Source: Leucobacter aridicollis (GTDB lineage: Bacteria; Actinomycetota; Actinomycetes; Actinomycetales; Microbacteriaceae). From it: a DNA stretch of 64,000 bases. Each line of letters starts with the position of its first letter. Position 1 is the first letter of the stretch. Location: assembly GCF_024399335.1 (NCBI RefSeq), contig NZ_CP075339.1, positions 3,540,183 to 3,604,182 of the forward strand. The letters run 5' to 3'. A program made the translations under genes and the position numbers. Positions 58,899 through 62,897 of this stretch are shown here, piece by piece. The notes under the pieces were generated by a model, which was given only the letters and a program-made list of their open reading frames with translations, ran no database searches and was not told where the DNA came from.

Positions 58899-59882
58899 TT
58901 AGTTAAAGCCCGGATCTCCGAGTTCGTCAAGAATGCGCTTGAGGTCAGCGATCGTCGCGAATTCGATCGCGATCTGCCCCTTCTTGGCGCCAAGTTTGAC
59001 TGACACTCTTGTGTCAAACCGATCGCCAAGCCTGTCGGCGATCTCGCTCAACTGCGCCTGCACGGCGCCTGGACGCGCCTTCGGCGTCTTTTGCTTGGGC
59101 GTCTCGCTTGCGATGGCTTCGGCTGCGCGCACCGAGAGCCCCTCATTCACGATGCGATCCGACAGCGACTGCATCGCGTGAACGTTTCCGTCGAGGGCGA
59201 GGATCGCGCGGGCGTGCCCGGCAGTCAACACGCCAGCAGCGACTCGGGTCTGCACGGGTTCTGGCAGCTTCAAGAGTCGGATCGTATTTGAGATCTGGGG
59301 GCGGGACCGGCCGATACGCTCGGCAAGCTGCTCTTGGGTGATGCCAAAGTCGGCCAACAGTTGCTGGTACGCAGAGGCTTCCTCAAGTGGGTTCAGTTGA
59401 GCGCGGTGCAGGTTCTCAAGGAGCGCGTCCCGCAGCATGTGTTCGTCAGCTGTCGACCGAACGATTGCGGGAATAGTGTCGCGGCCGGCACGCTTTGACG
59501 CGCGAAGACGGCGCTCGCCCATGATGAGCTCATACTTCGCGCCCGAGCGCGGCTTCGGCGAAATCTCGCGGACAACGATGGGCTGGAACACGCCGAATTC
59601 ACGCACAGAGTGAGTGAGTTCCTCGAGTGCCTCTTCGTCGAACTCGGTGCGCGGCTGAAGCTTGTTCGGAACGATATCTGTGACGCTCAGCGAACGCAGC
59701 TCCGCTCCGGGAACTTCGAGGAGCTCCGCCTCCTGCTCAGCTGCCTCAGCGTTTGCCGCGGCCGCCGCCGCTGCACCGGCGGCTGGGAAGAACACGTCGA
59801 CCGGACGCTCGCCCTCGCTGGGGGACTGCGGAATCAGAGCGCCAATGCCGCGGCCAAGACCACTCCGCTTCTTCGCTGTCAT
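58899..59882 (-). CDS. parB: Chromosome partitioning protein ParB
   Basis: A 327-residue ParB. The CTP-binding and N-domain motifs are PRTEFDEEALEELTHSVREFG and IMGERRLRASKRAG (GERR); the helix-turn-helix follows (GITQEQLAERIGRSRPQISNTIRLL in part: RIGRSRPQISN). It binds parS and slides along DNA as a clamp. The ATG overlaps the parA stop (ATGA). Confidence 0.95.
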   Translation of the reverse strand: MTAKKRSGLGRGIGALIPQSPSEGERPVDVFFPAAGAAAAAAANAEAAEQEAELLEVPGAELRSLSVTDIVPNKLQPRTEFDEEALEELTHSVREFGVFQPIVVREISPKPRSGAKYELIMGERRLRASKRAGRDTIPAIVRSTADEHMLRDALLENLHRAQLNPLEEASAYQQLLADFGITQEQLAERIGRSRPQISNTIRLLKLPEPVQTRVAAGVLTAGHARAILALDGNVHAMQSLSDRIVNEGLSVRAAEAIASETPKQKTPKARPGAVQAQLSEIADRLGDRFDTRVSVKLGAKKGQIAIEFATIADLKRILDELGDPGFN

Positions 59883-60781
59883 CCCTGGTCTCCCTTGTCA
59901 GTATTCGTCGTGGGCGCGCCGCGTTCGGCGACCTCGGCAGCTGCTTCGAGATACGCGAGGGCTCCGATGGAGCCGCTGTCGTACTCGTGGACAGTCTGGC
60001 CGTAGCTTGGTGCCTCCGAGATCCGCACTGATCTGGGAATTACTGCATCGAGCACTTCCTCGGGGAAGTGCTGACGTACCTCGTTCGCCACTTCCTGAGC
60101 AAGATTCGTGCGGGCGTCGTACATCGTGAGCAGGATCGTGGAGACCCGAAGTTCAGGGTTCAGGTGTTTCTGGATCAGCTGAATGTTTCCGAGGAGCTGG
60201 CTGAGGCCCTCAAGTGCGTAGTATTCGCACTGGATCGGGATCAACACTTCTCCACCTGCGACGAAGGCGTTCACTGTCAAGAGCCCCAGCGAGGGAGGGC
60301 AGTCAATGAAGACATAGTGGTACTCGCGTGTTGAGCCCTTCAAAAAAGCGTCGAGTGCCGTGCGCAGGCGCTGCTCCCGAGCGACAAGGGAGACGAGCTC
60401 GATCTCAGCCCCGGCAAGATTGATTGTCGATGGGACACACATCAGGTTGTCGTGATCGCTCGAGACTTGAATTGCCTCTTCAATCGACGCTTCGCCGAGA
60501 AGAACCTCATACACGCTCGTAATCTCGGGGCGGTGAGGGACGCCGAGGGCCGTCGACGCGTTTCCTTGCGGGTCAAGATCAATGACGAGCACGTTCGCGC
60601 CGCGCCGCGCGAGGGCAGAGGCGAGATTCACGGTTGTTGTCGTCTTGCCGACGCCACCCTTTTGGTTTGAGACCGTAATGATTCGAGTCTCAGAGGGCAG
60701 GGGAGACGGCGTGCTCGCAAGTCGCTTGCGGCGCTTGATCTTGTCTTCCAGATGGTCGGCGACGAGTGGTTTCTCAGCCAT
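59879..60781 (-). CDS. parA: Chromosome partitioning ATPase ParA
   Basis: A 300-residue ParA with deviant Walker A KGGVGKTTTTVNLASALA, Walker A' VFIDCPPSLG and Walker B region. It forms a gradient that segregates ParB-parS complexes. Its start overlaps the 3' end of rsmG by eight bases. Membership in the oriC-proximal operon is typical. Confidence 0.95.
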   Translation of the reverse strand: MAEKPLVADHLEDKIKRRKRLASTPSPLPSETRIITVSNQKGGVGKTTTTVNLASALARRGANVLVIDLDPQGNASTALGVPHRPEITSVYEVLLGEASIEEAIQVSSDHDNLMCVPSTINLAGAEIELVSLVAREQRLRTALDAFLKGSTREYHYVFIDCPPSLGLLTVNAFVAGGEVLIPIQCEYYALEGLSQLLGNIQLIQKHLNPELRVSTILLTMYDARTNLAQEVANEVRQHFPEEVLDAVIPRSVRISEAPSYGQTVHEYDSGSIGALAYLEAAAEVAERGAPTTNTDKGDQG

Positions 60782-61438
60782 GAGTACCTACTTTAGCGCG
60801 GAAGACCCGGGTGCTCTCAGCGAGTTGCTCTGCGCCAAGTTCGAGCACCTCAATATCGCGTACCTTGTGCCGCCGCAACACCTTTTGGGCTGCTTCAATC
60901 TCGTCATGGATCGCAGCACCCTTGAGGAATAGCAGTTCTCCCCCTTCCCGGAGGAGTGGGACTGTCAGTGGCACGAGCTTCTTGAGCGCCGTCACTGCCC
61001 GTGCTGTGATCTGGTCGGCTTCAAACGCGCCGTGGAACTCTTCTGCCCGTCCGCGCTTCACATGGGTGTTCGCAAGCTCGAGGCGCTCGATCTGTTCATT
61101 CAGCCACACACACACCTACGTTCCATCGGTTCAACAAGAAACACTTCGACGTCCGGCCGAATGATGCCAAGGACAAGGCCAGGCATGCCGCCGCCCGTTC
61201 CGATGTCGGCGACGCGACCGCCCTCGCGCAGGAGGGGTGCGAGAACCGCACTGTTGAGAATGTGGCGCGTCCACAATCGGGGCAGCTCGAGTGGACCGAT
61301 GAGTCCAAGCTCCTCGCCTCGAGCGGCGAGATCGGTAGCGAATGCGCGCAGCGTTTCGATCTGCTTGCCAGCCATTTCAGCGGCGGCTGCAGGCTCGGTC
61401 TCAAGCAGAGCGCTCTGGCCCCCGTCGTCCTGTTTCAC
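60774..61438 (-). pseudogene. rsmG: 16S rRNA (guanine-N7) methyltransferase RsmG, frameshifted
   Basis: Homology to RsmG (GidB) is split over two frames. From the GTG at 61438 one frame encodes the N-terminus and SAM motif VADIGTGGGMPGLVLG up to VFLVEPMERRCVCG and then stops at 61100; the second frame resumes as CVWLNEQIERLELANTHVKRG and ends normally at 60774. Removing one TG from the (TG)5 tract (minus strand, 61105-61115) restores a continuous RsmG reading MERRCVWLNEQIERL. Either the gene is truly inactivated or phase-variable, or it is a sequencing error. Loss of RsmG removes m7G527 of 16S rRNA and is known to give low-level streptomycin resistance. Confidence 0.85.
61105..61115 (-). repeat. 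(TG)5 dinucleotide tract at the rsmG frameshift
   Basis: On the plus strand CACACACACAC; on the minus coding strand five TG units. Four units would keep rsmG in frame. Dinucleotide tracts are prone to slipped-strand changes. Confidence 0.85.
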
Positions 61439-61449: not shown

Positions 61450-61959
61450 CTAGGCTGCGCGGATAACGAGACGCCGGCCTTTGCCTTCGCCCTGCGACTC
61501 TGAGTGGTATCCGCGCTCAGCGACCTGGTCGTGCACGAGCTTACGCTCGTAGGAGGACATCGGTTCAAGACGCACCTCATCGCGGCCAGCCGCAATCTGC
61601 GCAATCGCCGCGTCGACCATGCCCGTCAGCTGCTCTTCGCGAGCAACCCGCGATCCGGCCACGTCGATGATGAGGCGTGAGAATCGACCTGTCTTCGCCT
61701 GAACCGCGAGTCGGGTCAGGTCTTGCAGGGCCTGAACGGTGTCAGGCGCGGCAATGCGATCGATGCTCACACCACCGCCAGTGACCGAAACGTAGGCGCG
61801 GCCGTTCTCCACGGTGATGTCGAGATCTCCGTCAAGGTCTGCGATATCAAGCAGACCTTCGAGGTAGTCGGCGGCGAGATCGCCGTCGGCCTCGAGGGTT
61901 TCGAGGCTCAGCTCCTCGGTCTCCACGACTTCGCGCTCTTCAGTCACGGCCGTCCTCAC
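61450..61959 (-). CDS. jag: Jag/KhpB family KH-R3H RNA-binding protein
   Basis: A 169-residue protein: acidic N-terminus, KH domain (about 50-100) and R3H domain (LEPMSSYERKLVHDQVAERG, with GKGRRLVI at the end). It probably binds small RNAs or mRNAs. The GTG at 61959 overlaps the yidC stop (GTGA). Confidence 0.9.
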   Translation of the reverse strand: MRTAVTEEREVVETEELSLETLEADGDLAADYLEGLLDIADLDGDLDITVENGRAYVSVTGGGVSIDRIAAPDTVQALQDLTRLAVQAKTGRFSRLIIDVAGSRVAREEQLTGMVDAAIAQIAAGRDEVRLEPMSSYERKLVHDQVAERGYHSESQGEGKGRRLVIRAA

Positions 61960-62897
61960 TTCTTCTTCTTGGCGCGCTTTGCGCTGATGGGCTGCTGACG
62001 CTGGCCTTGTTGCTGCGGCGATGCCTCATTGCTTGCCTCAGGTGCGTCCTCAGTCAGCTTACCCTTTGCCTTGAGTCGAGCCTGGCGTGCACGCCACGCC
62101 TCGGAGCCGGGGTTCGGCATGGTGTTGATAACGATGCCCTGCTGTGCCATCGTCCAGATGTTCGAGGTCATCCAGTAGATGTTGAGTGCGAGCGGGAATG
62201 TGACGCCCGAGAACAGGAACGCGAACGGGATGATGTAGAGCAGGATCTTCTGCTGGCGGTACATCGGCGAGTTCTTGGTCTCATCAGAGACGTTCTTCGA
62301 CATGATCTGCAGTTGTGTGAAGAACTGCGACGCGATCATAAGGACGACGATGGAGCCAAGCAGGCCAACGACAACCCAGTTTTGAGATTCCCAGCCCTGG
62401 GTAAAGTTCATCTTCAGGGGAGCGCCGAAGATCGAAGCCTGGTTAAAGCTGTCAGTGAGCTCGCGGTCCATCAGGCCGATGCCGACAGTGTTTTCTGATG
62501 CCTTACGGAGCACGTAGAAGAGCGAGAAGAAGACTGGCATCTGGATCAGGATCGGGAGGCACGACGAGAACGGATTGGTGCCGTGCTTCTTGTAGAGCGC
62601 CATGGTCTCGCGACTCATCGCCTCGCGCGAGAACTGGTCGTTCTTGCCCTTGTACTTTGCCTGGATCTTCTTCATCTCAGGCTGGATGTCCATCATCCTG
62701 CGCTGCGACTTGATCTGGCGCACGGTAACTGGGATGAGCGCAGAGCGGACGACGACCACGAGGCCGATGATCGAAAGCACCCACGTCAGGCCGCTCTCGG
62801 CACTCATGCCAAGAGTGGTGAAGAGTTGATGCCAGAGTACGAGGACGACCTCAACAAGCCACCTCAGTGGCCAGAGAATTGTCTCAAAGAAGTTCAC
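61956..62897 (-). CDS. yidC: Membrane protein insertase YidC
   Basis: A 313-residue YidC/Oxa1 insertase with five membrane segments, starting MNFFETILWPLRWLVEV; the conserved hydrophilic-groove Arg is in VVVRSALIPVTVRQ and a Lys-rich cytoplasmic loop (KIQAKYKGK) follows. The C-terminus is a basic tail (SAKRAKKKK). It inserts membrane proteins alone or with SecYEG. Four bases separate it from yidD. Confidence 0.93.
   Translation of the reverse strand: MNFFETILWPLRWLVEVVLVLWHQLFTTLGMSAESGLTWVLSIIGLVVVVRSALIPVTVRQIKSQRRMMDIQPEMKKIQAKYKGKNDQFSREAMSRETMALYKKHGTNPFSSCLPILIQMPVFFSLFYVLRKASENTVGIGLMDRELTDSFNQASIFGAPLKMNFTQGWESQNWVVVGLLGSIVVLMIASQFFTQLQIMSKNVSDETKNSPMYRQQKILLYIIPFAFLFSGVTFPLALNIYWMTSNIWTMAQQGIVINTMPNPGSEAWRARQARLKAKGKLTEDAPEASNEASPQQQGQRQQPISAKRAKKKK

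Follow-up and report, generated by a model that had tools for sequence, protein, structure and literature searches.

The rsmG gene of the one-contig Leucobacter aridicollis genome (3,604,182 bases) is broken into two open frames at a (TG)5 tract, probably (we would put it at roughly 0.6) because replication slippage lengthened a lineage-peculiar tract by one TG unit, giving a real and recent loss-of-function allele. The window, by which we mean the whole 64,000-nucleotide stretch analysed, is the end of this contig, and the gene lies on its minus strand. The N-terminal half (61438-61100, 112 aa, with a GTG start) closes at a premature TGA (61102-61100), two bases past the tract, which occupies 61105-61114 on the same strand (3601287-3601296 of the genome) and was located in the sequence and by a pattern search. 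The C-terminal half, also on the minus strand, occupies 61115-60774, and would be of 113 aa with the GTG whose first base immediately precedes the tract as its start codon.

Both halves score above the Pfam cut-off for PF02527 (GidB/RsmG) and jointly span that family once, the N-terminal half covering positions 1-85 (E 1.8e-21) and the C-terminal half positions 85-179 (E 3.4e-16). TIGR00138 is divided at the same place (3-81 and 82-174), each half by itself falling under the cut-off of that model (59.5 and 57.8 bits, against 99.5). It is the two halves taken together that match RsmG across both models; the window's genome has no single continuous rsmG reading frame, the gene being split at the tract, and that split is confirmed. 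An earlier, sequence-only reading of this DNA had given exactly these coordinates and had proposed that the halves join as RsmG at the TG tract, which is borne out by the coverage of PF02527 and TIGR00138 and by the 100% matches to an intact protein considered next. Its interpretation stands as regards the identity of the gene, the split at the tract and a likely origin by slippage, while the reversible phase-variable switch that it went on to propose finds no support (see below); its warning of a possible sequencing error was justified.

A protein search with the RsmG of Leucobacter genome G003 yielded two continuous 220-aa proteins that are nearly or entirely the same as the interrupted one. 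P0002 is identical to the N-terminal half at 110/110 residues and to the C-terminal half at 112/112, and P0003 at 110/110 and 110/112, respectively. P0003 is on one contig and P0002 on two, the longest of 171,115 bases, so P0002 does not come from the present one-contig assembly, although its record might represent a second assembly of this strain. The 100% match of the intact P0002 to both halves shows that there is an in-frame allele and makes the rsmG break a strain-level event; the 'one extra TG unit' is deduced from this protein match and from the DNA of relatives, rather than from the DNA encoding P0002. Searches with each half alone found no protein above 81% identity to the N-terminal half (among the best 120 of 243 proteins) and none above 87% to the C-terminal half (10 proteins), and since the window's own halves were missing from the same results, the failure to find further truncated copies carries little weight.

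Across Leucobacter, an rsmG match is present in 52 of 54 genomes, and in 49 of the 51 other than the window's own the gene forms one frame with neither stop nor insert, so that, with P0002 and P0003, close relatives hold the intact allele from which a spontaneous null allele would be derived. At the site of the tract all 51 have at most two TG units, and the surrounding stretch is 45 bases long in the window and 43 in all but one of 52 rows compared (the 51 other genomes, with G028 appearing twice), the exception being G026; it follows that the tract arose in the window's lineage. G026 and G028 are also the two genomes whose rsmG has a stop or an insert. In G028 the gene has an in-frame TAA (L114, 3150-3300) where relatives read ATC GAG or ATT GAA, and as its ATC TAA is only one or two base changes away, this stop is the easier to accept as a genuine nonsense mutation. 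In G026 there is an inserted in-frame direct repeat, its 185-nt copies 89% alike, spaced 201 apart and separated by a stretch that codes for proline (L113, 3010-3395), which looks like a misassembly. In a wider set from the family, rsmG was matched in 392 of 397 genomes, the window's own included, and we set aside the idea of recurrent breakage, as among the matches listed only three of the 392 (this genome, G026 and G383) had a best E-value worse than 1e-30, in a scan that reads through stops and so can let breaks escape.

Within the 3.6-Mb genome TGTGTGTGTG occurs five times. Three copies place (TG)5 in the same sequence setting, 12 bases ahead of each of three 16S rRNA matches, and one is at the 3' end of an open reading frame that by eye resembles a regulator; these four sites outside rsmG were viewed as lists of open reading frames. 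The shorter (TG)4 is not rare, with 72 overlapping 8-mers across the genome, and the three observed in the window were reached by 15 of 100 window shuffles.

Might the break instead be an error of sequencing or assembly, the tract being in frame and RsmG functional in the strain itself? We consider slippage by +2 the better explanation and an error, which is its main rival, unlikely, even though an error would fit nearly as well. When the window was compared with 80 kb of G003 (open reading frames of at least 100 aa at 60% identity or more, giving 60 non-overlapping matched frames in each direction, some of them antisense), no real gene other than rsmG had its frame broken, so that an error would have to be the sole frame error in this comparison, in a genome of 99.68% completeness. 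Five other frames flagged there, split three to two between the directions, were rejected as lying on the strand opposite to, or in a different frame from, conserved genes that are in a single frame, three of the five having been rechecked. Moreover, current sequencing methods seldom miscount a 10-base dinucleotide tract by two bases. On the other side, an error would account readily for the identity of P0002 at the protein level (the more so if it or P0003 is from the same strain), for the finding of the truncated form in no second record among the matches listed, and for the apparent constraint on both halves. Against G003, dN/dS is 0.059 for the N-terminal and 0.021 for the C-terminal half and 0.007-0.026 for four neighbouring genes, values to be read with the N-terminal half standing above all four neighbours, with dS near 1 (close to saturation), and as a two-species comparison that is blind to very recent change. 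Relaxed selection on the halves is not clearly seen in this comparison, and the lack of any long decay implies that the break is either recent or not real. Were it an error, it would matter only as a correction of one genome record.

The repair genes found also favour slippage. No MutS_V match came up in the genome with a search that gave one in 11 of the 14 genomes used as controls, and there is one match to NucS. MutS-MutL is reported to be missing from almost all Actinobacteria (PMC5290159), and short indels are described as not being corrected by NucS in the species studied (PMC8228993); the same account suggests that almost no short indels may escape the proofreading of the polymerase in actinobacteria, which makes easy slippage less likely (PMC8228993).

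These considerations bear on the suggestion that rsmG is phase variable, that is, that frequent back-and-forth slippage maintains a population mixed for the presence and absence of RsmG. Slippage is reversible in principle, and the lack of a MutS match together with the failure of NucS to correct indels would favour such behaviour, but the tract has only five units, and the other 51 Leucobacter genomes, with two units at most, do not share the repeat at this site as would be expected of a contingency locus. With a tract so short and so peculiar to one lineage, the switch lacks support, one broken record beside intact ones being what any ordinary mutation would leave, and we regard it as very improbable. 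The output of Tandem Repeats Finder was uninformative either way, (TG)5 being below its lowest threshold, and among the titles listed in literature searches that paired rsmG or gidB with phase variation, none describes a switch of this kind. Equally improbable, in our view, is a bridging of the break during translation, whether through a two-base slip of ribosomes on the TG repeat or through reinitiation at the GTG of the tract, that would yield some working RsmG. The GTG of the C-terminal frame does begin 13 bases ahead of the stop of the N-terminal half, and the repeat would, as we reason from its sequence, permit slipped tRNA re-pairing; yet in both P0002 and P0003 the 220 residues form one unbroken protein and relatives are without such a repeat, so there is no hint of an evolved function. 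The most likely explanation of the split is the ordinary one, a natural null allele arising by slippage, an event of a known kind.

The neighbours of rsmG are in unbroken frames, in the minus-strand order yidC, jag, rsmG, parA, parB. Upstream on that strand are a jag-like gene with an R3H domain (61450-61959; PF01424) and yidC (60KD_IMP; 61956-62897; PF02096), whose product comes closest, in named records, to that of Leucobacter sp. G161 (94%) and that of L. komagatae (93%, over a cut contig), with that of G003 closer still (98%). Downstream, also on the minus strand, are the gene for a ParA-type ATPase (59879-60781; PF13614) and parB (58899-59882; PF02195, PF17762 and PF23552). The first 8 bases of parA are shared with the 3' end of rsmG, within the last rsmG codons, and to judge from this overlap an early stop in rsmG might also reduce the translation of parA.

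If the allele is real, translation of RsmG would end two bases past the tract, ahead of the second half of the methyltransferase, and G527 of 16S rRNA would then be expected to remain unmethylated. The expected outcome of the absence of m7G527 would be a low-level tolerance of streptomycin, since loss of rsmG in other bacteria is reported to give mild streptomycin resistance (PMC13390409; PMC10521367). Past exposure to streptomycin may have been the selecting agent, as is suggested by an integron piece with aadA in the same genome. Ribosomal protein S12 retains TPKKPNSA and RGGRVKDLPG, the motifs taken as wild type for the regions of positions 43 and 88, and the 530-loop sequence is the usual one in all three 16S genes found; with both looking wild type, nothing points to a further step giving high-level resistance. 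We found no literature joining gidB, streptomycin and slippage, and none with both Leucobacter and rsmG among the matches listed; another Leucobacter, HNU-1 (3,375,033 bases), is reported to be streptomycin-resistant (PMC12027743).

The genome has two matches to AadA_C. One is in a piece of a class 1 integron in the window's own chromosome, at about 3,250,500-3,255,500 (L151, 7500-12500), which contains an IS6-family transposase, the start of an integron integrase (a fragment, the first 70 residues, under the cut-off of its model), an AadA-type ANT(3''), a DfrA1-like protein and QacE. Further genes of the region resemble, by eye, sul1 and those for an Erm-type methylase, a relaxase and an efflux protein. 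At least 5000 plasmid records match the 5-kb piece, and at least 361 of these cover 80% or more of it; the best of the matches listed, about 98% identical, are in several genera. The second AadA_C gene adjoins an acetyltransferase-like (GNAT) gene and is under all the NCBIfam cut-offs shown. The same pairing of an acetyltransferase-like gene with one for an AadA-like nucleotidyltransferase is found in G028 (L150, 533-1830, and L152, 3160-4673, in the two genomes), the acetyltransferase-like products being 54% and the AadA-like ones 44% identical, so that the resemblance of the G028 gene is to this second, GNAT-linked gene and not to the integron aadA; both are at most putative streptomycin modifiers. 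In G047 an apparent class 1 integron with aadA can be seen by eye between two IS6-type transposase genes (L153, 2116-7669), in a genome with an uninterrupted rsmG.

In all, AadA_C is matched in four of the 54 Leucobacter genomes, one of the matches (in G042, 48 of 103 positions) being partial and barely above the cut-off, and both of the genomes with an interrupted rsmG, by frameshift here and by a stop in G028, are strong carriers, of which there are three. For two of two interrupted genomes to fall among three strong carriers, in the 52 genomes with rsmG, the hypergeometric P is 0.0023, a post hoc value that ignores relatedness. This strict test leaves out G026 as an apparent misassembly, and the association weakens to a post hoc P of 0.0067 with G026 counted as broken and of 0.013 when the G042 match is added as well. 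One could suppose that AadA-type nucleotidyltransferases, acquired or resident, prepare Leucobacter lineages for the natural loss of rsmG, enzyme and ribosome change acting together in the manner of strB and rsmG in Agrobacterium fabrum; we think this rather doubtful, and treat the link between rsmG and aadA as a lead, coming as it does from two genomes, in one of which the gene is only a putative streptomycin modifier. If the frameshift is real, an rsmG null allele has arisen naturally in an actinobacterium that has no MutS match and whose chromosome also has a class 1 integron piece with aadA, and it becomes testable whether loss of rsmG outside the laboratory tends to follow the gain of a streptomycin-modifying enzyme.

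Among known systems, genes that are phase variable through simple repeats have in common with the present case the formal mechanism, in which repeat number turns the gene on or off, but their tracts are usually longer and common to strains, while that in rsmG is short and lineage-peculiar. Another likeness is to the W150fs allele of Escherichia coli, also a frameshift in rsmG, which arose under exposure to streptomycin and is reported to co-occur with mutations in rpsL and rpsE (PMC13390409), in contrast to the S12 motifs kept here. A third is to Agrobacterium fabrum, in which rsmG was mutated in six of six resequenced streptomycin-resistant isolates, two of them sharing one +1 frameshift in a homopolymeric run of the gene, and in which a chromosomal strB gives a moderate resistance that loss of rsmG raises (PMC10521367). 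The change there is of +1 in a homopolymer, with resistance measured and with strB, encoding an APH(6), as the enzyme gene (PMC10521367), whereas here it is of +2 in a TG repeat and known from sequence alone, the enzyme is an AadA-type ANT(3'') in an integron piece, and no match to the APH(6) family (PF04655) was found in the genome. What the two cases share is a frameshift in a short repeat inside rsmG, the presence alongside it of a gene for a streptomycin-modifying enzyme and, going by the account given of the resequenced isolates, an rpsL without change (PMC10521367).
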